Source: Nitrospira sp. CG24A (GTDB lineage Bacteria; Nitrospirota; Nitrospiria; Nitrospirales; Nitrospiraceae). From it: 42,424 bases of DNA. The position numbers and the translations under genes were made by a program. Where the stretch lies: the NCBI GenBank assembly GCA_002869925.2, contig NEWT02000013.1, positions 1-42,424 of the forward strand, read 5' to 3'. The notes beneath the pieces were generated by a model, which saw only the letters and a list, made by a program, of their open reading frames with translations, was not told where the DNA came from and ran no database searches. Positions 1-8,912 of the stretch are shown here, piece by piece (the first letter of the stretch is position 1; each line of letters opens with the position of its first letter).

Positions 1-364
1 TCACGCCGGTGGACCCGATGAATATTTGTTGTGTGGGAACTCCGATGTGGTGTGCGAGCAACTGTGCAGTTTTCTTTGCGGCGGCTAATCCTTTGGAGCC
101 GGTACAGGCATTGGCGTTACCGCTGTTCACGAGAATGGCTCGGCCGATTCCCTGGCGCAGGTGTAGACGATCGACAATGACTGGCGCTGCGACCACCTGA
201 TTGTTGGTGAAGACACCGGCAATGGGACCGCTCTGCTCCGAAACGACAAGTGCGAGGTCGAGGATGCCAGTCTTCTTGATCCCGCAATGGATGCCGGCTG
301 CGCGGAACCCCTGCGGGGCGGTGACTCCACGGCGCGGAGACGCGGTTGTTATTTTTTTACCCAT
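1..364 (-). CDS. argJ: Glutamate N-acetyltransferase / amino-acid acetyltransferase, N-terminal part (cut by window edge)
   Basis: Only the first 121 residues are inside the window; the gene continues past position 1. ArgJ transfers acetyl from N-acetylornithine to glutamate (and in bifunctional forms makes N-acetylglutamate from acetyl-CoA) in the cyclic arginine pathway in the cytoplasm. The translated start reads MGKKITTASPRRG, followed by the family blocks PQGFRAAGIHCGIK, GVFTNNQVVAAPV, ILVNSGNANACTG and, at the edge, IGSTGV, where family members place the oxyanion-hole Thr-Gly pair. The self-cleavage Thr lies beyond the window. The start is the ATG at 364-362. A GAGGA motif is about 19 bases upstream, which is too far for a good ribosome site, so initiation may be weak. 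A 140-bp GC-rich gap with several short complementary segments separates it from argC on the same strand. argC next to argJ is a normal arginine-gene arrangement. Confidence 0.93.
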   Translation of the reverse strand, partial: MGKKITTASPRRGVTAPQGFRAAGIHCGIKKTGILDLALVVSEQSGPIAGVFTNNQVVAAPVIVDRLHLRQGIGRAILVNSGNANACTGSKGLAAAKKTAQLLAHHIGVPTQQIFIGSTGV

Positions 365-504
365 GATCGAAAGAGCGATGTCCTCTATAAGGGGTGGTTG
401 GGATGATTCCAACTGCGCGCGTCCAACGAGGGGAGTCTTCGACCGCGCGTTGCGCGAGCAAGGGGATCGTCCCGGCGACCCCGCCCCCCTTTTTCAGCAT
501 CCTG

Positions 505-1578
505 CTAGGGGTAGGCAGCGGGAGCCGTCAACCCTGTCTCCTCAGGGAATCCCAGCATGAGGTTCATGGCTTGAATCGCTTGGCCTGCTGCGCCCTTCAC
601 AAGATTATCCAGCGCGGCTACTGTGATGACTGACCCTGAACGGGAGTCGAGGTAGACTCCAATGTCGCAATAGTTAGAGCCCTTGATGTAGCGCGGATTT
701 GGAATGGTCTCTTCCTGGACCCTGACGAACCGCTCACCTTTGTAAAAGTCTCGATACAATGCGCGCAGGTCCGGCAGGGGCATCGGACTCTTCAACTTGC
801 AGTACGCCGTGCTCAGGATCCCACGATTCATTGGGACGAGGTGCGGGGTGAAGGTGACGATCGGTTGTGCAGGTGTCATTTGTGATGGTTGTGCGGCTCG
901 TTGAAGAAACCGGCCAAGTTCTTGTTCGATCTCAGGGATGTGACGGTGCCCACCGAGTTTATACGGCTCTAAGGATTCATGGGCTTCAGGGAAATGGTAG
1001 GGGAGCGCCGGGCTTCGGCCAGCCCCGGAGATACCGGACTTTGCATCGATGACGACGGTGTCAGGTTGCACCAGACCGTGGGCGAACAGCGGAGCCAATT
1101 GGAGAACGGCTGCAGTCGGGTAACAGCCAGGCGAGGCTACTAACCGTGCTTTGGCAATGGAGGCGCGATGCAATTCGGGAAGTCCATACACGGCGTCTTT
1201 CAGCAAGTCTGGATAGGTGTGCGGCGTCTTATACCATTGCTCATAGATGGCAGGATCGCTGAGCCGGTAGTCGGCGCTGAGGTCCACCACCAGTTTCCCG
1301 GTCTTCAAGCAGGCAGAAACCGGCTCCAGTGATTTGGTATGGGGAAGGGCCAAGAAGACCGCATCGGCCTGTTCGGCCAAGGCTTCCGGCGAGAGCGCTT
1401 GAAACGAGAGAGACACGAGACCAGCCAGACTCGGGAAGACTGTTCCCACGGGAGAGCCGGCAGACTTCTCCGATGTCACAGCGTGGAGATCGAAGTGCGG
1501 GTGAAGGGCTGCCAGGCGGACGAGCTCCGCTCCGGCATATCCACTCGCTCCTGCAATGGCGACACGTACTTTTTTCAT
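505..1578 (-). CDS. argC: N-acetyl-gamma-glutamyl-phosphate reductase
   Basis: ArgC reduces N-acetylglutamyl phosphate to the semialdehyde with NADPH, the third step of arginine synthesis. The protein has 357 residues, a normal length for the long-type family. It opens with the Rossmann motif VAIAGASGYAGAELVRL (about residues 6-22), has DLSADYRL near 99-106, and carries the catalytic cysteine in SPGCYPTA (Cys152). The reading frame stays open 39 codons upstream, but those codons cover the rpsI terminator. The ATG at 1578, directly ahead of the Rossmann strand and preceded by GGTGAG, is the sensible start. It lies downstream of the rpsI terminator, so it probably has its own promoter or depends on read-through; I did not see a clear promoter. 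argJ follows on the same strand. Confidence 0.96.
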   Translation of the reverse strand: MKKVRVAIAGASGYAGAELVRLAALHPHFDLHAVTSEKSAGSPVGTVFPSLAGLVSLSFQALSPEALAEQADAVFLALPHTKSLEPVSACLKTGKLVVDLSADYRLSDPAIYEQWYKTPHTYPDLLKDAVYGLPELHRASIAKARLVASPGCYPTAAVLQLAPLFAHGLVQPDTVVIDAKSGISGAGRSPALPYHFPEAHESLEPYKLGGHRHIPEIEQELGRFLQRAAQPSQMTPAQPIVTFTPHLVPMNRGILSTAYCKLKSPMPLPDLRALYRDFYKGERFVRVQEETIPNPRYIKGSNYCDIGVYLDSRSGSVITVAALDNLVKGAAGQAIQAMNLMLGFPEETGLTAPAAYP

Positions 1579-1609
1579 CTGTCTCACCTGCCATGCGCTC
1601 AATGGAAAC

Positions 1610-1641
1610 AAAAAAGGGAAGGCCTGGAGCCTTCCCTTTTT
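1610..1641. terminator. Bidirectional intrinsic terminator between rpsI and argC
   Basis: A perfect 8-bp stem GGGAAGGC (1616-1623) and GCCTTCCC (1629-1636) encloses the loop CTGGA. It has an A run on its left and a T run on its right, so it can work in either direction. For the minus-strand transcript it sits 20 bases after the rpsI stop and should close the rplM-rpsI operon before argC. Confidence 0.85.
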
Positions 1642-1660
1642 CCTACTGTGGCTCCGATGA

Positions 1661-2053
1661 TTATCGTTTCGAGTACTGGAACCGCTTTCTCGCACCCTTC
1701 TGTCCGTACTTTTTCCGCTCTTTGACGCGCGAGTCCCTGGTCAGCAGGCCTTCTTTCTTTAAGGGAGTACGGAGAGGCTGGCTGAGTTCCACCAACGCGC
1801 GTGCGATGGCATGGCGTAAGGCGCCGGCTTGTCCAACCTGCCCGCCGCCTTGAACTGTGGCCTTAATCGAGTACTGTCCCATCACGCCACCGATCTCAAG
1901 CGGGAATTGAATAATCTGTCGCAGGGTCAGCCGCGGGAATGCCTTCTCGATCGGTTGGTCGTTGATAGTAATGTCGCCCGCCCTCCCAGTGACCCAGGCT
2001 CTGGCAATGGCACACTTTCGTCGTCCGGTTGCATATTGAGTTGCGACTGCCAT
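1661..2053 (-). CDS. rpsI: 30S ribosomal protein S9
   Basis: Small-subunit ribosomal protein of 130 residues, the standard length. It starts MAVATQYATGRRKCAIARAW, has the conserved GGGQVGQAGALRHAIARAL block near residues 68-87, and ends in the basic tail KKYGQKGARKRFQYSKR, whose C-terminal arginine reaches the P-site tRNA in known ribosomes. An AGGAGA ribosome site lies about ten bases ahead of the ATG. It follows rplM by 33 bases, the near-universal L13-S9 pair, and is closed by the hairpin terminator at 1610-1641. Confidence 0.98.
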   Translation of the reverse strand: MAVATQYATGRRKCAIARAWVTGRAGDITINDQPIEKAFPRLTLRQIIQFPLEIGGVMGQYSIKATVQGGGQVGQAGALRHAIARALVELSQPLRTPLKKEGLLTRDSRVKERKKYGQKGARKRFQYSKR

Positions 2054-2086
2054 GCTATATCGTCTCCTTCTTCTTCCGTGTGAGGT

Positions 2087-2515
2087 CTAGAGGGTGATCG
2101 GTTCCGGTTGTTGGGCCTGATGCGGATGGGTGGGCCCTACGTAGACGCGGAGCTTCTTTGCCATATGGTTTCCCAGCGGGTTTTTGGGAAGCATTCCTTC
2201 GATCGCTTTCGTTAACAGCACTGTCGGATCCTTTCGGAAGACATGCTGCGCGGTGGCAGTTTTGATTCCACCGGGAAAGCCGCTATGGCGGCGATAGAGT
2301 TTTTCGGCCATCTTGTTGCCGGTGAGATGAACCTTCTCCGCATTCACAATGACGATATGGTCACCCATGTCTACATGAGGGGTAAAGGTCGGTCGGTGTT
2401 TGCCGCGCAACATTCCGGCAACTCGGGCTGCGAGCCGGCCCAGCGTTTTTCCCTCCGCATCCACCAGATACCATTTTTCCTGCACGTCTAACGGCTTTTG
2501 CATATAGCTCAACAT
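2087..2515 (-). CDS. rplM: 50S ribosomal protein L13
   Basis: Large-subunit assembly protein of 142 residues, the normal size. Recognisable blocks are [16 protein letters not shown] (about 15-30), [18 protein letters not shown] (about 51-68), and [21 protein letters not shown] (about 106-126). Two starts are possible, MLSYMQKP at 2515 and MQKP at 2503. The first has GGAGAG four bases upstream and the second has nothing similar, so 2515 is chosen. The gene begins 31 bases after the end of the second BFN-domain gene, so it probably shares that operon and its promoter near 3600. Confidence 0.98.
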
Positions 2516-2546
2516 TATTCTCTCCGTTCTTTCACGATCGAGTGAC

Positions 2547-3044
2547 TTAGGTTTCTTGCACTTCCGGTGCGGCGATATCTTTCGACTCCAGCTTGGCCAG
2601 CCAGGCGTCGAGATTCGTCGTACTTCTCTGTCTCAACACGTCTTGGGTGATGTAAATCGGGCAAGGAGCCCGCAAGGCCAACGAGATGGCATCGCTGGGT
2701 CTGGAATCGATGGTCCGTTCCAAACCTTTGTTCGCGACATGCACCGTGGCATAATAGGTACTGCTTTTAACGTCCGTAATGACGACGCGTTGGATCGTGA
2801 TATTCAAGTGCTCGGCGAAACTCTTGATCAAATCGTGGCTCATGGGCCGTGGTGTGATCATGGTATCGAGCGCTAATTTGATGGCATTCCCTTCTGCCGC
2901 TCCGACCCAAATCGGAAATGTGTCGGGTACGCCGTCCTGACGTGCTAAAACGACAATCCTCGTATCGGTATTGGCTTCTTCCAGGATGCGATCCACCCGG
3001 TATTCAACCATGCCTTGTTCGTTGGTTTGATCGGGGGTACTCAT
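2547..3044 (-). CDS. Bifunctional nuclease (BFN / DUF151) domain protein, second copy
   Basis: A 165-residue protein of the DUF151 or bifunctional-nuclease family; a plant member has reported DNase and RNase activity, while bacterial roles are mostly undefined. Family signatures are [17 protein letters not shown], the TPRPMSHDL block and [17 protein letters not shown]. The chosen start is the ATG at 3044. An in-frame TTG at 3065 overlaps the upstream stop as TTGA and could be used by translational coupling; neither start has a strong ribosome site. It is a paralogue of the gene just upstream, sharing the IWVG, TPRPM-HD and RPSDAI-LALR blocks, but it has a different N-terminal extension. It sits between that gene and rplM. 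Confidence 0.88.
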
Positions 3045-3061
3045 AAGTCTGTCGCGTTGAC

Positions 3062-3517
3062 TCAAGAATCTAGTTTCCCAAAGTCTTCAGGTTTAAGATT
3101 TTCCAGCCACTGTTCAAGCTCTTCGGAACTCTGTTTGGTCATGACAGAATTGTTTGCAAACACCGGCGCATTGCTCCGGAGGGCGAGGGCTATCGCATCG
3201 CTTGGCCTGGCATCGACCGTGTATTCTGAATCTTCATACATGAGATGAATTTTTGAAAAATAGGTGTGCTCCGACAAATCTGTAATCACCACACTGATGA
3301 CTTTTGCATTGAAGGCATCAAGGAACGACTTCATGAAGTCGTGTGTCATCGGTCGGGGGGGCGTCACATTTTCCAGCGACATGCTGATCGCGCCGGCTTC
3401 TGACTTGCCGACCCAAATGGGGAGCATGTCGGAATGCTCTTCGTCACGTAGCACCACGATGTAGGCGTTATTATAGGGGTCGAACATCAACCCTTTCACA
3501 TGCATCTGTGTAATCAT
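3062..3517 (-). CDS. Bifunctional nuclease (BFN / DUF151) domain protein, first copy
   Basis: A 151-residue protein that is almost entirely one DUF151 domain: LPIWVGKSEAGAISMSLE (about 32-49), TPPRPMTHDFMKSFLDAF and RPSDAIALALRSNAPVF. The C-terminal 25 residues are acidic (SSEELEQWLENLKPEDFG). The start is the ATG at 3517 with AGGA about eleven bases upstream. It is the first gene of the probable operon BFN-BFN-rplM-rpsI, transcribed from the promoter at 3597-3626. No catalytic mechanism can be assigned from sequence alone; nuclease activity is only what is reported for a plant family member. Pairing with ribosomal protein genes suggests a link to growth or translation, which is inference. 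Confidence 0.9.
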   Translation of the reverse strand: MITQMHVKGLMFDPYNNAYIVVLRDEEHSDMLPIWVGKSEAGAISMSLENVTPPRPMTHDFMKSFLDAFNAKVISVVITDLSEHTYFSKIHLMYEDSEYTVDARPSDAIALALRSNAPVFANNSVMTKQSSEELEQWLENLKPEDFGKLDS

Positions 3518-3592
3518 GAACGCACTTGTCCTGTATCGCTCTCCGTAACGAGTTATGAGGAGATGTCAATTTTCGTAGATGGATCGAAACCG

Positions 3593-3611
3593 CTGAAATG
3601 TAGCATTTCAG
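3593..3611. promoter_or_regulatory. Perfect inverted repeat over the -10 box, candidate operator
   Basis: CTGAAATG TAG CATTTCAG is an 8-bp perfect inverted repeat with a 3-base centre. It covers the -10 hexamer of the BFN-ribosomal operon promoter, the classic place for a repressor site. No T run follows it, and it overlaps the predicted promoter rather than the 3' end of a gene, so a terminator is unlikely. The binding protein is unknown. Confidence 0.6.
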
Positions 3612-3626
3612 AAGTCGGCCTGTCAA
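3597..3626 (-). promoter_or_regulatory. Sigma-70-type promoter of the BFN-rplM-rpsI operon
   Basis: On the minus strand there is TTGACA (plus coordinates 3626-3621), an 18-base spacer, and TACATT (3602-3597). The predicted start point is near 3590, about 70 bases before the first BFN ATG. This is a consensus -35 box and a fair -10 box in the only sizeable gap upstream of the operon. Confidence 0.68.
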
Positions 3627-3631
3627 CGAAG

Positions 3632-3647
3632 CCTGCGAGATCGCAGG
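3632..3647. promoter_or_regulatory. Second palindrome upstream of the -35 box
   Basis: CCTGCGA GA TCGCAGG is a 7-bp perfect inverted repeat ending six bases upstream of the -35 box of the same promoter. Its sequence is unrelated to the -10 palindrome, so it may bind a different regulator. It is not followed by a T run. Confidence 0.45.
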
Positions 3648-3720
3648 AGAAATTCAGAGAGGACTCGCCGAATACAAGCCTAGTCGGAAGTTCTCTTGCC
3701 CGACGCAGAGCGGTTCAGGT

Positions 3721-3999
3721 TTAGGCTGGCGGGCGGTAGTTCTGATCGAGTTTCCCGGTATCTGTTTGCTCCCCAAGTTTGAGAAAAGCCTTCATCTGCT
3801 TTTTCACGAGGTCTCTGCCGCTTTCTTCACCTAGATTGACTTGATACTCGTTGATGACCATCACCCGCATGCCTTCCCATTTCTTCCAGCAAGGCTTGCA
3901 GACTTTGGATTTGATCTCGGATTCAAGCTTTCCCATGAAAAGAGGGTCGGTGATCGTTTCTCCTGCTTGCCCACACGTGACGCATTGAACGTCTGCCAT
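3721..3999 (-). CDS. Zinc-ribbon protein with a YggX / Fe(2+)-trafficking-like C-terminal half
   Basis: A 92-residue protein. The N-terminal half has two Cys pairs, CVTCG (Cys6, Cys9) and CKPCW (Cys34, Cys37), spaced like a metal-binding ribbon. From residue 38, WKKWEGMRVMVINEYQVNL followed by LVKKQMKAFL resembles the YggX family (W-x2-W, MLINE, L-x3-M-x2-FL), small proteins linked to iron handling and protection of Fe-S clusters. Classical YggX has no second Cys pair, so this looks like a variant or fusion; function is inferred. The frame is open upstream across the antisense of the tRNA gene, but the ATG at 3999, with AAGGAA upstream, is the right start because the extra codons are low-complexity antisense. 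A 203-bp regulatory gap separates it from the BFN operon. Confidence 0.78.
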   Translation of the reverse strand: MADVQCVTCGQAGETITDPLFMGKLESEIKSKVCKPCWKKWEGMRVMVINEYQVNLGEESGRDLVKKQMKAFLKLGEQTDTGKLDQNYRPPA

Positions 4000-4049
4000 A
4001 ATATGAGATTCCTTCCGAGTGCAGTTATGAGATGAGTAATTGGAGGAGA

Positions 4050-4058
4050 ATTGTAACA
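4050..4058 (-). promoter_or_regulatory. Extended -10 promoter candidate for the YggX-like gene
   Basis: On the minus strand the sequence reads TGTTACAAT, an extended -10 element (TG-N-TACAAT). A weak -35-like TTATAT lies 17 bases upstream. The predicted start is about 40 bases ahead of the ATG at 3999. Confidence 0.45.
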
Positions 4059-4090
4059 CTGCTGTCGTGCGAATATAAAGAGGGCGCAGA

Positions 4091-4119
4091 TTGACCCGCC
4101 TATGGCTTCGTGCTAAGAA
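4091..4119 (+). promoter_or_regulatory. Promoter of the tRNA-Leu gene
   Basis: TTGACC (4091-4096), a 17-base spacer, and TAAGAA (4114-4119). The predicted start is about 4126, some 14 bases before the mature tRNA, a normal leader length. Confidence 0.55.
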
Positions 4120-4139
4120 GATTCGACTGTACCCTGTAT

Positions 4140-4226
4140 GCCCGGATGGCGGAACTGGCAGACGCGCCGGACTCAAAATCCGGTTCTCGCAAGAGAGTGG
4201 GAGTTCGACCCTCCCTCTGGGCACCA
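4140..4226 (+). tRNA. tRNA-Leu (anticodon CAA)
   Basis: An 87-base class II tRNA with encoded CCA end. The acceptor stem pairs GCCCGGA with TCTGGGC (one G-U). The anticodon stem CCGGA/TCCGG holds the loop CTCAAAA, giving anticodon CAA, which reads UUG leucine codons. The T arm shows GTTCGAC. The long variable arm (around TTCTCGCAAGAGAGT) fits leucine tRNAs. No clear terminator follows. Confidence 0.95.
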
Positions 4227-4329
4227 TCGGTTCGCAGTGTGTGGTTGGTATGGTAGGAATGTGTATGGAGTTGGACGATAATCGGATGATGCCGAGCGCG
4301 AAATGACATCAGATTCTGTAGAAGATCAG

Positions 4330-4358
4330 TTGACTTGTGAAAATGGGTAGCCTATAGT
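4330..4358 (+). promoter_or_regulatory. Strong sigma-70-type promoter of the secreted-protein gene
   Basis: TTGACT (4330-4335), a 17-base spacer and TATAGT (4353-4358). The predicted start is near 4365, giving a leader of about 105 bases before the ATG at 4470. Confidence 0.65.
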
Positions 4359-4469
4359 TCGCGGGCATTAGGGTGATGAAAAAATCTCATAGATATAGAT
4401 CATCTCATCTTCGTGTCGGCCACGGCACGACAGTCTATTACTCTCAAAATCTTACCGAGGAGGCAGCAC

Positions 4470-5228
4470 ATGCGTAACGTGTTGGCACTGGGAGCGGCAA
4501 TTATTTTTGTCGGCGCCGCAAGTATGGCAATCGCTCAAGAACGATTGCAGTCTAACCAATCCGGCATGGGTGTGGGCGAGGGGGTTGGCGATGTATCTGG
4601 ATCGAGTACTCGCGTGACCACTTTCGATAGGACTCAGTTCCTTGATCGGTTATCTCAGCCTGAGACGGTGTATGGGCGGGTATTTGCGCTTGACATGGCG
4701 CAGCACAGACTGATGATCGAAACAGGCGGGGCAGGGAAGATATTCGACCAAGGGCAGGAAGGCAAGGCAGGGTACGGAGCTCGGACAGTCATTACCCTGG
4801 TCATTGATGATCATTCGAACCTTCAGAGCCTCAAAGAAGTCAATGTCGGGGACGACGTCAGTATCCAAGTCAGGGAACAGACTACGACTGACCAACCATT
4901 TGGCACAGGGCAGAAACTTGTGCTGGAGGCCTATGTCATTCATATTGCTGATACCAGACAGGGGTTCGGTGGACTTGGACAACGCCCAGATCCTGAAAGT
5001 GAGCGTTCGATTACGACGAATCGCGGTGGAATTACAGGCGGCATCGCTGGTGCAGTGCTTCCGGGCAAGATCGATTCCGGTATCACCAGCTCGATTGGTG
5101 AATTTACGGGTTCCGCTCCTTGCTGGCAGTGCGAGCCACAGCCGGGATGGGGCAATGCTGCAACTGGAACGAAGTCAGACTACGGAACGGACTACACCAA
5201 GCCAAACTTGGTCAAGGGCATGAACTAG
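4470..5228 (+). CDS. Secreted or periplasmic protein of unknown function
   Basis: I do not recognise a family with certainty. The 252-residue protein begins MRNVLALGAAIIFVGAASMAIAQ, a good signal peptide with likely cleavage after AIA. The start at 4470 has GAGGAGG seven bases upstream, whereas a farther in-frame ATG at 4413 would spoil the signal peptide. After a Gly/Ser-rich stretch come YGRVFALDMAQHRLMIETG and ITLVIDDHSNL..EVNVGDDVSIQV, a pattern resembling small OB-like beta-barrel proteins (a value-binding strand, then a G-D-x-V turn). A Gly-rich region (RGGITGGIAGAVLPG) and a CWQC motif near the C-terminus follow. It is a single-gene unit with its own promoter and terminator, which suggests an abundant or separately regulated protein. 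Confidence 0.8.
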   Translation: MRNVLALGAAIIFVGAASMAIAQERLQSNQSGMGVGEGVGDVSGSSTRVTTFDRTQFLDRLSQPETVYGRVFALDMAQHRLMIETGGAGKIFDQGQEGKAGYGARTVITLVIDDHSNLQSLKEVNVGDDVSIQVREQTTTDQPFGTGQKLVLEAYVIHIADTRQGFGGLGQRPDPESERSITTNRGGITGGIAGAVLPGKIDSGITSSIGEFTGSAPCWQCEPQPGWGNAATGTKSDYGTDYTKPNLVKGMN

Positions 5229-5264
5229 TTCGAGACACATTCGCAAGCGTCTAGCAGAATTGAA

Positions 5265-5292
5265 GGGGCAGCAAGACGCTGCCCCTTTTTTT
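5265..5292 (+). terminator. Intrinsic terminator of the secreted-protein gene
   Basis: Perfect 8-bp stem GGGGCAGC / GCTGCCCC with loop AAGAC, followed by seven T residues. It begins 36 bases after the stop codon at 5228. Confidence 0.92.
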
Positions 5293-5350
5293 GCGCGCAC
5301 TGTGTGGTGAGATACGGCACCGTGGTTGCGGGGATGCCGACTCTTTGCTA

Positions 5351-5474
5351 GCAGGCCGTTGATAAAGTCGGCCAGCATCGTTCTCGCGTCGCTCAGAGGC
5401 TCAACGTACCGAAGCGTACGCCTCGCCTCTTCGCTTGCTGCAGCCTTGCTGGACGGCCTTTCTGAACAGCCTGC
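5351..5474. repeat. MITE/REP-like element with long imperfect terminal inverted repeats
   Basis: A 124-bp non-coding segment with matching ends. The left end starts GCAGGCCGTTGATAAAG and runs to CCAGCA (5377). The right end starts TGCTGG (5447), and its reverse complement reads GCAGGCTGTTCAGAAAG and runs to CCAGCA. About 22 of 27 positions pair. The centre contains a smaller near-palindrome, CGTACCGAAGCGTACG. It has no coding capacity. The structure fits dispersed palindromic intergenic elements; I recall similar sequences in Nitrospira genomes, but this is memory, and only one copy is visible here. It occupies most of the 359-bp gap between the terminator at 5292 and the gene at 5588. Confidence 0.65.
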
Positions 5475-5545
5475 AGGTCATCAGCTTCCGTAAGTGATCT
5501 CAGGCGTGATGTCATTTCCGGTGTCACCAGCTAGTTTGTCAACAG

Positions 5546-5563
5546 ACTGCCAGGACTGGCAGT
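5546..5563 (+). promoter_or_regulatory. Short hairpin just upstream of the TusA-like gene
   Basis: ACTGCCA GGAC TGGCAGT is a perfect 7-bp stem with a 4-base loop, ending 24 bases before the ATG at 5588. No T run follows, so it could be an operator or a 5'-UTR stem next to the ribosome site (GGTGAG at about 5574). Confidence 0.4.
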
Positions 5564-5587
5564 GGACTCATGCGGTGAGTTGCCAAG

Positions 5588-5875
5588 ATGAACGAGAAGG
5601 AGAAAAATGTGAGTGGAGAGGACCCTACAAAACTAAATCATGAGCTAAATACCGAGTTGGATTTACGGGGAGTGATTTGTCCTTATAATTTTGTCAAAAC
5701 CAAGTTGAAGCTCGAAGCGATGGAGCAAGGGCAGATTCTTTCAGTGCTCTTGGACGATGGTGACCCCATTCGAAATGTCCCCCTGAGCGTCAGTAATGAG
5801 GGGCACACGGTGCTTTCACAAGATCGGCTTCAAGAATTCTATCGAGTGCGTATTCGACGCCGCGACGATGAGTAG
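5588..5875 (+). CDS. TusA/SirA-like sulfur-carrier family protein
   Basis: A 95-residue protein. TusA-family proteins carry persulfide sulfur on a conserved cysteine for tRNA thiolation, cofactor synthesis or sulfur oxidation. Here the first 23 residues are a polar extension, then LDLRGVICPYNFVKTKL contains the active-site Cys31. The usual CPxP motif reads CPYN, so the second proline is Asn34. The rest follows the family: MEQGQILSVLLDDGDPIRNVP and a hydrophobic strand near EGHTVL. The C-terminus is basic (RVRIRRRDDE). The last 37 bases overlap the end of the convergent RsmI-like gene. The partner and pathway cannot be told from the neighbours. Confidence 0.8.
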   Translation: MNEKEKNVSGEDPTKLNHELNTELDLRGVICPYNFVKTKLKLEAMEQGQILSVLLDDGDPIRNVPLSVSNEGHTVLSQDRLQEFYRVRIRRRDDE

Positions 5876-6654
5876 CGGAGAGGACCCTTCTGCGCATCGT
5901 TGTGTGCGCGCGATCCCATCCTCTTTCCTTCGATGACGACTGTCACCGCAGAATCCTTTGCCACAATTCCGATCTGATCACGCAGCGCACTCGGCACCCC
6001 TCGCAACACGGTTTCTTTAGACGTTGTGAGATCTATTGCGATGGCTACCTGCCTGGCGGGGAGTACCTGTGCCAGAACTTTTAGGAGCCTGGCAAGGGTT
6101 TTAGGTTCCACATAGAAGATGAGGGTGCTGCGTGCATGTTGGTGCTGGGAGAGATGTTGCGCGAGCGCACGGACGGTTCTGGGTAAGCGTCCCTCAAAGA
6201 TAATGGCATCGCCGGAAAACCCGGAGATCGCCGTTGCGGCCGTGAGGGTAGAAGGACCTGGGATGGCCTTGACCGGGATTCCTGCTTGATGGGCAGCGGC
6301 CACAAGTAGGCTGCCTGGATCATAGATGACTGGAGTGCCATTATCTGAGACGAGGGCGACATCCTGTCCCTGCATCAGCCGATGGAGAAGGAGCGGCATT
6401 TTCTCATGGAGATTGATCGGGCCGTAGCTGGTGATGGTTGCGGTAATCTCATGATGTGCCAAGAGCGCCTGGGTTACGCGAGGGCTTTCTGATGCAACAA
6501 TCCTGACGTGGCGCAATGTAGCAAGGGCCCGAAGGGTAATATCGTCTGGGTGACCGATCGGTGTACTGACGACATAGAGGGTACCGATGGAACCAGAGAC
6601 GAGTGTCCGCCTTCTCGTGTCATGATCGTTTGGTTGACTCCCCTCTCGCGCCAT
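5839..6654 (-). CDS. rsmI: RsmI-like 16S rRNA 2'-O-methyltransferase (tetrapyrrole-methylase fold), divergent
   Basis: RsmI methylates the ribose of C1402 in 16S rRNA using SAM. The 271-residue protein has the family start GTLYVVSTPIGHPDDITLRAL (about 24-44), a SAM-pocket block ALVSDNGTPVIYDPGSLLV, and AIPGPSTLTAATAISGF. Two usual motifs differ: AEDTR reads SESPR, and SDAGTPGISDPG reads SDNGTPVIYDPG. It may be a diverged RsmI or another small-molecule or rRNA methylase. The ATG at 6654 has no visible ribosome site. A TATA-like run lies a few bases upstream on its own strand, so a very short or absent leader is possible. It is divergent from the haem cluster, and its 3' end overlaps the TusA-like gene by 37 bases. 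Confidence 0.82.
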   Translation of the reverse strand: MAREGSQPNDHDTRRRTLVSGSIGTLYVVSTPIGHPDDITLRALATLRHVRIVASESPRVTQALLAHHEITATITSYGPINLHEKMPLLLHRLMQGQDVALVSDNGTPVIYDPGSLLVAAAHQAGIPVKAIPGPSTLTAATAISGFSGDAIIFEGRLPRTVRALAQHLSQHQHARSTLIFYVEPKTLARLLKVLAQVLPARQVAIAIDLTTSKETVLRGVPSALRDQIGIVAKDSAVTVVIEGKRMGSRAHNDAQKGPLRYSSSRRRIRTR

Positions 6655-6663
6655 CGATATAAT
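6634..6663 (+). promoter_or_regulatory. Near-consensus promoter of the tetrapyrrole cluster
   Basis: TTGACT (6634-6639), an 18-base spacer and a perfect TATAAT (6658-6663). The predicted start is near 6670, about 46 bases ahead of the HemX/CcsA-like ATG. The -35 box and spacer overlap the first codons of the divergent rsmI gene. Confidence 0.78.
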
Positions 6664-6715
6664 CCACAGCTTAATGTTGTCTGTTTATCCTGAAAAGTTG
6701 AGAGGATAGCCCTCT

Positions 6716-7519
6716 ATGGCCGCCATGTTTTTCGTGGTGACGATGGCCCTGTATTTTGCGGCCACCGTTTCCTTTCTGATCTATCTGCTCTGGCCGTCTG
6801 AAGTCCTGGCAAATATCTCGCTGGGTATGACAGCGACTGGGTTTGCCGCACATACCATTGCGTTGGGTGCAGGGATGGTCGGGGTGACAGACATCTCCTC
6901 GCCTGGATTCCATGAAGCCCTGTCGTTTTTCTCCTGGATGCTGATCCTGGTATTCCTTGCCGTGGAGTTTCGTCATCATCTTCATGTGCTTGGCTCGTTT
7001 ATCGTTCCGCTGGCCTTACTCTCGCTGGTCTCTGCCGCCGCATTGCCGGAAGCCGCGCCGACGCTGACTCCGGTGTTTGGCACGCTGTGGGTTCATGTCA
7101 CGCTGAGCATGCTCGGTACCGTGGGGTTTGCCGTCGCCTTCGTGGCTGGTGTCATGTATCTGATTCAAGACGGACTTCTCAAGTCTAAACGGTTCAATGT
7201 TCTCTACTCTAAGTTACCTGCCCTGGATTTCCTCGACAATCTGAATCAACGGTCGATCGTGACGGGGTTTCCCCTCCTCACGCTCGGCATCATTACCGGT
7301 GCGCTTTCCGCCGAGTTTTCTCGGGGTTCCTATGTGAACTGGAACCCCGAGCAAGTATGGGCGCTCGTGACATGGGTGTTCTACTTTGTCGTATTGACCG
7401 GACGTCTCACCGTGGGCTGGCGGGCTAAGCGAGCGGCCTATTTGACGATTATCGGGTTTGCCGGAGTGATCCTTACTCTCATCGGTGTGGTCCTCAAGAG
7501 TCACGGACCGGTGTCGTGA
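6716..7519 (+). CDS. CcsA/HemX-type membrane protein (cytochrome c assembly family)
   Basis: A 267-residue inner-membrane protein with about eight hydrophobic helices (near 4-27, 34-55, 68-85, 91-110, 124-150, 180-200, 213-232, 243-262). The loop YVNWNPEQVWALVTW (about 203-218) matches the tryptophan-rich haem-handling segment of the CcsA/CcmC/HemX superfamily, and His46 and His127 lie in helices where family members bind haem. Directly ahead of hemA, such genes are usually called hemX or ccsA; in Bacillus HemX lowers glutamyl-tRNA reductase levels, while CcsA forms deliver haem for cytochrome c maturation. The start at 6716 has AGAGGAT upstream. It ends one base before hemA, so the two are translated together. 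Confidence 0.87.
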   Translation: MAAMFFVVTMALYFAATVSFLIYLLWPSEVLANISLGMTATGFAAHTIALGAGMVGVTDISSPGFHEALSFFSWMLILVFLAVEFRHHLHVLGSFIVPLALLSLVSAAALPEAAPTLTPVFGTLWVHVTLSMLGTVGFAVAFVAGVMYLIQDGLLKSKRFNVLYSKLPALDFLDNLNQRSIVTGFPLLTLGIITGALSAEFSRGSYVNWNPEQVWALVTWVFYFVVLTGRLTVGWRAKRAAYLTIIGFAGVILTLIGVVLKSHGPVS

Positions 7520-7520
7520 T

Positions 7521-8912
7521 ATGCATATTGTTGTCGTCGGTTTGAGCCATAAGACCGCCCCGGTCGAAATCCGCGAGAAGCTGGCGATTCCCGAGAGCCG
7601 GATGGCTGAAGCGTTGGGTCGCCTCTGTTCGTATCGAGGGGTGCGAGAAGGGGTGTTGCTGTCGACGTGCAATAGAGTTGAGGTCTATGCCGTGGTTGAT
7701 GAGATCGAGTCAGGGTATGGACGAATTCAGGATTTTCTAGCGGATGCCCACCTCTCGCTCTCCTCAGAGCAACTGACTCCTCATCTGTACTGGCATGAGG
7801 GGGATCGGGCACTTGGCCATTTGTTTCGGGTCGCCTCCAGTCTCGACTCGATGATCATCGGTGAGTCGCAGATTCTGGGCCAGATCAAAGAGGCCTTCGA
7901 GGTTGCGCTGACGCACAAGTCCACCGGCATTATTCTGAACAAAGTGATGAAGAAAGCGATTTCCGTCGCCAAACGTGTGCGGACGGAAACGAAAATTTCC
8001 GAAATGGCGGTGTCGGTGAGCTACGCGGCAGTCGAATTGGCCAAGAAGATTTTCTCGGACTTAACTGAGAAGACCGTGCTGTTGGTGGGAGCAGGGGAAA
8101 TGGCTAAGTTAGCCGCGCGACATTTCATTGCCAGCGGTGTTCGTCATGTGCGGGTGACGACCAGAAGTCCTCAACATGCAGTGGAATTGGCCAATCGGTT
8201 TGGTGGCACCGCGGTCCCTTTTGAGGAATTTCGGGAGGATATGGCCACGGCCGATATTGTATTAGTGTCGACCGGCGCCGCGCATTATCTCGTGAGCGAA
8301 GACGATGTGCAGCATTCGGTCAAGCAACGGATGAACCGTCCGATGTTCCTGATCGACATTTCGGTCCCGCGTAATATTGATCCAGCGGTGCGGCACGTGG
8401 ATAACGCCTTCCTATTCGACATCGATGATTTGAAGACGCGGGTGGAACGGAATCGCGGGGAGCGCCTCAATGAGGCTGAGAAAGCCGAGCGGATGGTGCT
8501 GGATGAGGTTGGTGTTGTGCGGCAATGGCTTCAATCACTTGAAGTGACTCCCACCATTGTGGCTCTCCGCACACGGATCGAAGAGATTAAAAAGGCTGAG
8601 ATCGACAAGACCTTGGGAAGATTGGCACATTTGTCCTCGACGGAACGTGAATTGGTCGAGGCGATGGCGTCGTCCATTGTCAATAAGCTGATTCACAATA
8701 CGATGGTGACGCTGAAGGCTGAGGTGAATTCCTCGGAGGGAGCCGCCTTCGTCGAAGCCGCGCGGCGATTTTTCAGCCTCGGAGATTCTCCCGGTTCCAA
8801 CGTCAACGGGAGCCCTTCATCTGAGTCGGAGACCTGTCATCCGTCACAAGACGGTATCCAGGATGCTGAAGAGGTGACTCCAAGGACTGGCTCGAAGATG
8901 CCACGTCATTGA
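7521..8912 (+). CDS. hemA: Glutamyl-tRNA reductase
   Basis: Makes glutamate-1-semialdehyde from glutamyl-tRNA(Glu), the committed step of C5-pathway tetrapyrrole synthesis. The 463-residue protein starts MHIVVVGLSHKTAPVEIREKL and has the catalytic cysteine at position 50 in LLSTCNRVEVY, the family position. The NADPH-binding segment VLLVGAGEMAKLAARHF lies near 190-210, and the C-terminal dimerisation helices follow, with a polar tail after about residue 420. The frame is open 12 codons further up inside the preceding gene, but the family N-terminus fixes the start at 7521, one base after the previous stop. Confidence 0.97.
   Translation: MHIVVVGLSHKTAPVEIREKLAIPESRMAEALGRLCSYRGVREGVLLSTCNRVEVYAVVDEIESGYGRIQDFLADAHLSLSSEQLTPHLYWHEGDRALGHLFRVASSLDSMIIGESQILGQIKEAFEVALTHKSTGIILNKVMKKAISVAKRVRTETKISEMAVSVSYAAVELAKKIFSDLTEKTVLLVGAGEMAKLAARHFIASGVRHVRVTTRSPQHAVELANRFGGTAVPFEEFREDMATADIVLVSTGAAHYLVSEDDVQHSVKQRMNRPMFLIDISVPRNIDPAVRHVDNAFLFDIDDLKTRVERNRGERLNEAEKAERMVLDEVGVVRQWLQSLEVTPTIVALRTRIEEIKKAEIDKTLGRLAHLSSTERELVEAMASSIVNKLIHNTMVTLKAEVNSSEGAAFVEAARRFFSLGDSPGSNVNGSPSSESETCHPSQDGIQDAEEVTPRTGSKMPRH

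Follow-up and report, generated by a model that had tools for sequence, protein, structure and literature searches.

Which signals set the transcription of the rplM-rpsI operon in Nitrospira sp. CG24A? Ribosomal protein operons are usually tuned by mRNA feedback and, through RNA polymerase, by growth-rate signals. In the 42,424-nt stretch analysed here (called the window), the genes for ribosomal proteins L13 and S9 follow two bifunctional nuclease (BFN) genes, and the promoter ahead of them carries two different palindromes, from which a preliminary description had deduced control by dedicated DNA-binding regulators. The question is whether such control exists and, if so, which DNA it would use.

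The operon and its core promoter

On the minus strand, a YggX-like iron-traffic gene is followed, after a gap of 203 nt, by BFN1, BFN2, rplM, rpsI and argC (Table 1). The genome comprises 40 contigs. The closest relatives of BFN1 are found in Nitrospira MAGs, and BFN1 has a match in each of the 32 genomes of the genus, partial in two of them and with a stop in one. From these genomes 30 loci were fetched; G021 and G024, with only partial BFN1, gave no locus, and one fetched locus (L031 of genome G011), in which the BFN1 start is lost, was dropped, leaving 29. The set from other genera (n = 55) was prepared from 61 loci (L081-L141) by leaving out the genus members L082-L085 and dropping L121 and L122. 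In the set of 80 loci, the iron-traffic gene lies upstream of BFN1 on the same strand in all 78 loci with enough DNA. The downstream order is stable as well, with BFN2 in 79 of 79 loci and rplM, rpsI and argC each in 74 of the 75 loci that are long enough.

Table 1. Positions of the genes and sequence elements discussed in the text, in window coordinates.
Feature	Position	Strand	Basis or remark
rpsI (ribosomal protein S9)	1661..2053	-	PF00380
rplM (ribosomal protein L13)	2087..2515	-	PF00572
BFN2	2547..3044	-	PF02577, E 1.1e-35
BFN1 (bifunctional nuclease domain), opening the operon	3062..3517	-	PF02577, E 2.5e-39
Predicted 73-nt 5' leader	3518..3590	-	Transcription start inferred at about 3590
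-10 palindrome CTGAAATG-CTA-CATTTCAG	3593..3611	-	Right arm not conserved; judged incidental
Extended -10, TGC-TACATT	3597..3605	-	Promoter scan; TGnTA kept in other genera
-35 box TTGACA	3621..3626	-	Unchanged in 29 genus loci
Most conserved core GATCTCGCAGGCTTCG, adjoining TTGACA	3627..3642	-	Per-site changes; invariant alignment columns
Conserved upstream block TGAATTTCTCCTGCGATCTCGCAGGCTTCG, adjoining the -35 box; proposed regulator-binding DNA	3627..3656	-	Rate test, 22-mer search
Upstream palindrome CCTGCGA-TC-TCGCAGG, partial dyad within the conserved block	3632..3647	-	Pair counts
Fe(2+)-trafficking (YggX-like) protein, upstream neighbour	3721..3999	-	PF04362

The predicted promoter consists of TTGACA, a spacer of 18 nt and TACATT (3602-3597), and it scores 10 out of 12 with the extended TG. 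Positions 1-8000 of the window hold 10 promoter-like sites, compared with 4.6 +/- 2.0 in shuffles. In the other genera TTC[AG]TTGAC[AT] is present in 55 of 55 rows, the rows having been anchored on that string, and its final A is found in 50; the T, G, T and A of TGnTA are each kept in 54 of the 55. When 20 promoters from other genera were fetched, some of them from the same species, TT[CG]RTTGAC[AT] was located at most 230 nt from the start codon in 14. The elements of a sigma70-type extended -10 promoter, that is, a TTGACA-like -35 box, TGnTA and a spacer of 16-18 nt, are therefore all present and conserved. The same architecture precedes rplU and atpH, and TTGACA-N14-16-TGnTA occurs at 35 sites in this genome compared with 18 for the reversed pattern. 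Many of the TTGACA/TGnTA sites precede housekeeping genes, according to gene names read from translations. On these sequence grounds the core promoter is an ordinary sigma70-type one with an extended -10.

The predicted leader folds no better than shuffles (z = +0.57). Its rate is 3.7 changes per site and 2 of its 73 sites never change, a mild constraint far below that of the block upstream of the promoter described below, and since it is somewhat constrained it may have some function. A structured and conserved 5'UTR of the L13 leader type was not found at the head of the operon, and Rfam gave no match over the promoter, the upstream block or the leader.

The upstream block and the two palindromes

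In 29 of the 30 fetched genus loci, the upstream DNA can be aligned gap-free across the 78 nt that surround the promoter. Rates were evaluated on a tree of 29 loci, built on 1.9 kb starting at BFN1 with the block left out. The 30-bp block that adjoins the -35 box changes at 1.0 per site, and 15 of its 30 sites are unchanged. For the neutral comparison, 36 four-fold codon sites of BFN1 gave 5.33 changes per site, and the 30 bp preceding the block gave 7.43. None of 100,000 samples of 30 BFN1 four-fold sites was as conserved as the block. On the same tree the -35 box has 0 changes, the first 12 nt of the spacer 3.75 and the extended -10 region 1.8 changes per site. Within the block, which contains 16 G+C out of 30 (53%), the right half (GATCTCGCAGGCTTCG) varies least. 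The block is thus under strong purifying selection, constrained beyond the neutral sites and held at a fixed spacing to the promoter, as a transcription factor site would be.

A comparison was also performed with the promoters of rplU and atpH, aligned for 28 and 26 genus members, respectively, with rates taken on the 22 genomes common to the three promoters. The atpH loci L230, L242 and L245 were dropped as the start motif was not found, and the partly missing atpH row for -60..-31 was not used. Counting from TTGACA, positions -30..-11 evolve at 0.85 changes per site here compared with 7.1 for rplU and 7.15 for atpH, and positions -10..-1 at 0.3 compared with 3.0 and 3.1, while the -35 box never changes in these genomes. 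Both control promoters also have a short conserved stretch by the -35 box, with none beyond about 10 bp. Among the 34 other TTGACA/TGnTA sites of the genome, the best match to the block agrees at 14 of 30 positions. With these two controls rate-tested, the comparison indicates that the core promoter is ordinary and that the upstream block is special to this operon.

Two side observations were made on the control loci. Just upstream of the atpH start codon (L217-L244), the sequence CTTTTCGTGC...GCACGAAGG in most of the 26 aligned genomes resembles, by eye, a hairpin whose loop varies, possibly a regulatory leader RNA. The short rplU leader looks strongly conserved around TCATCTTCTGTAACGGAG in the 28 aligned genomes (L189-L216).

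Both palindromes reported in the preliminary description are present in the window: the one covering TACATT has perfect arms of 8 bp, and the other, located 5 nt upstream of TTGACA, has perfect arms of 7 bp. Their fates in the relatives do not follow the boxes. Across the 29 genus loci, in which the promoter boxes are kept, the -10 palindrome has 8 of 8 pairs in the window only, 7 in 2 loci and 6 in 3, and it shows no covariation. It is best read as a chance feature rather than a regulator site. The upstream palindrome has all 7 pairs in 4 of the 29 loci, 6 in 10, 5 in 12 and 4 in 3. In the other genera it is perfect in only 1 of 55 rows (L103), and 52 of 55 rows have at most 4 of the 7 pairs. 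Palindrome covariation was not above chance, the score for the given pairing being reached by 210 of 500 column shuffles; slid controls scored lower, as they should when a structure is derived from one member of the alignment. On the 29-locus tree the dyad's left arm is less conserved than its right, and this asymmetry argues against a simple operator of two half-sites. A symmetric repressor operator with both half-sites conserved was not found across the relatives. The perfect palindrome in L103, together with a near-perfect block in L258 of another genus, suggests that it may be old in this branch.

The window overall is richer in inverted repeats than chance. Perfect repeats with arms of at least 8 bp and a loop of 0-8 nt number 20 compared with 4-14 in 10 dinucleotide shuffles, and those with arms of at least 7 bp number 48 compared with 20-40. 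Palindromes alone are therefore not rare or exceptional here, and both of those at this promoter appear mostly incidental to what is conserved.

Copy number and range of the block

The 22-mer GATCTCGCAGGCTTCGTTGACA, which joins the right half of the block to the -35 box, has one copy per genome in 31 of the 32 genus genomes when at most 1 mismatch is allowed. Allowing 3 finds it in 46 of 235 genomes of the order, and some of the matches outside the genus are not at the operon. When TTCG and the -35 box were left out, the remaining block sequence TTTCTCCWGCGATCTCGCAGG matched in 30 of the 32 genus genomes with up to 3 mismatches. Extra matches, each with 3 mismatches, were found in 5 of those 30; one sequence is common to G006 and G013, and none is genus-wide. 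By these searches the block is single copy in the genus and stands before BFN-BFN-rplM-rpsI. No regulon emerged, as the genome has a single match and the weak extras inspected have no widely shared gene.

In the 55 rows from other genera, the block takes approximately the form TTTYCC-TG-nn-TTGTCGC-n-G, and its distance from TTCRTTGAC[AT] is unchanged. The letters of TTGTCGC are each retained in 41-47 of the rows. Hence a diverged, non-palindromic form of the block appears to persist in other Nitrospiraceae. The block is absent or unrecognisable in several Nitrospira clades in which the promoter is kept, such as L139-L141 (Candidatus Nitrospira defluvii and relatives) and the group of L128, L129, L131 and L133-L135.

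Two wider searches were considered as sources of a regulon. The palindrome CCWGCGANNTCGCWGG with up to 2 mismatches occurs at 112 places in the genome compared with 45 for the reversed pattern. Among the matches listed, one dispersed sequence (the CCTGCGGCC-T/C-TGCTGG type) recurs in many variants, and these can account for the excess. The near-perfect places inspected include L181, where an RNA-binding-protein-like frame ends, L175, which overlaps open frames, and L177, which by eye looks coding. The matches were not accepted as a regulon. This genome (G000) has many dispersed near-identical copies of a sequence like CCTGCGGCCTTGCTGG, perhaps part of a repetitive element.

The diverged element TGNNTTGTCGCNGGNTTCRTTGACA has a match in 99 of 175 genomes of the family, covering 5 of 22 genera. 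Not all of its matches are at the operon, and those in genus g14 are elsewhere. We fetched 18 of the extra places, which are part of all extras: 4 precede a TenA/heme-oxygenase-like gene, 2 are the same place in two related genomes, 4 have a common repeated sequence downstream, and the rest differ. The extra places do not make a convincing regulon. In four genus genomes (L266-L269) the TenA/heme-oxygenase-like gene (labelled by eye) has, about 50 nt upstream, a site of the TTCATTGACA type that somewhat resembles the block. In other genera, L274, L275, L276 and L280 have TGAGCTGCTGCCGGTTTCGTTGACA-like sites with a common downstream ttcgaactccat-ggactgagata, as if they belonged to a mobile or repeated element.

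What may read the block

We consider it rather probable that the block serves a trans-acting regulator as its dedicated DNA site, at a promoter that is otherwise an ordinary sigma70-type one. In the proposed mechanism, the operon BFN1-BFN2-rplM-rpsI would be driven by TTGACA-N15-TGCTA. An operon-specific site of about 30 bp of double-stranded DNA, roughly at -37 to -66 from the predicted start, would be bound by a putative trans-acting protein, mainly through its right half and the TTCG by the -35 box. The bound protein would then raise or lower transcription of this one operon. Against this reading, a lone site per genome is unusual for a transcription factor unless the factor is private or autoregulatory, although a private or self-regulating factor would fit it; also, the dyad, the clearest symmetry, is degraded in most genomes. 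Of the earlier proposal, the part on dedicated DNA-level control is plausible in this altered form, in that a 30-bp block is conserved beyond neutral sites and beyond two control promoters, while the palindromes are not that site.

One reading, which follows the preliminary description, takes the two palindromes as two separate operators for dimeric repressors. Both are perfect in the window, and the upstream one is intact in 4 of 29 genus loci and in L103, with one pair lost in another 10. We nevertheless regard this as very unlikely, since the -10 palindrome is complete in just 1 of 29 loci, the shuffles (210 of 500) indicate no covariation, and the upstream dyad is reduced to 4 pairs or fewer in 52 of the 55 other-genus rows, with its left arm the less conserved. 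No support was found for two different regulators. The upstream palindrome is a partial dyad in the block, and other genera with a related block have mostly lost it. The main rival to a protein-binding site is an intrinsic contact, in which RNA polymerase itself reads the block through its alpha C-terminal domains or an extended -35 contact, so that the block sets promoter strength without any regulator. The block abuts the -35 box without a gap, TTC stands beside TTGAC in all 55 anchored other-genus rows, and rplU and atpH have a short conserved stretch there too. Their conservation does not extend beyond about 10 bp, however, while the block is operon-specific and single copy in the genus, and its 16 G+C out of 30 is unlike the A+T-rich UP elements. 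We judge this contact unlikely.

Two further readings take the block as transcribed or translated sequence. It might act as RNA, a leader or small-RNA element on read-through transcripts from the iron-traffic gene; that gene shares the operon's strand in 78 of 78 loci, and the upstream palindrome of the window could form a hairpin. Yet the block sits upstream of a conserved promoter, which already accounts for the invariance of the -35 and -10 boxes, and it has neither pair covariation nor an Rfam match, which makes an RNA role quite improbable. The other possibility is a conserved short upstream ORF spanning the block (frame TTC GTT GAC). This frame is open over -27..+30 in 71 of 84 promoters, compared with 6 and 0 for the other two frames, and in the genus its third codon positions change slightly more, with 11 changes in 11 codons compared with 6 and 8 at the first and second. 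But it is the promoter boxes that close the other frames, in 45 of the 84 promoters the DNA examined contains no in-frame start ahead of a stop, and the stop positions scatter. Moreover, the third positions change at 1.0 per site, about 5 times below the 5.33 at BFN1 four-fold sites. Such an ORF is extremely improbable.

The preferred reading of a regulator site can be placed among known systems. Activator and repressor operators can abut the -35 box (class II-like sites), and the block resembles them in position, length and fixed spacing to TTGACA; it differs as a putative regulator site that is single copy per genome and has weak symmetry. UP elements of rRNA and ribosomal promoters are A+T-rich and occupy -38 to -59. 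The block shares their location just upstream of the -35 box, but it is 53% G+C with near-invariant letters, so that the A+T richness of such elements is not seen. According to PMC10931766, the E. coli rplM-rpsI operon is subject to stringent control and is repressed in translation by uL13, which binds a structured 5'UTR of 157 nt. The same two ribosomal genes share one operon here. In Nitrospira, however, two BFN genes come first, the 73-nt leader is predicted to be unstructured, and the element under strong conservation stands ahead of the promoter and not in the 5'UTR. Three structurally unrelated L13 leaders, in E. coli, Firmicutes and Bacteroidetes, are described in PMC7247131. They are like the block in being a cis element ahead of the rplM operon, but they are mRNA structures, whereas the block is upstream of the predicted start and is without conserved pairing. 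In the open-licence literature on the promoter, rplM-rpsI control, Nitrospira start sites and BFN/DUF151, we found nothing on this element.

As a speculation that we think has little chance of being right, a product of the operon, most plausibly a BFN nuclease-fold protein, might bind the block and set rplM-rpsI transcription, replacing L13 mRNA feedback. The site would then be private to the operon because the operon would regulate itself at the DNA level. Whichever protein might bind it, the block offers an exact 30-bp target and is therefore testable by pull-down. A near-invariant, operon-specific site of this kind points to private transcriptional control of two ribosomal and two nuclease-family proteins, in the setting of slow-growing nitrifiers.
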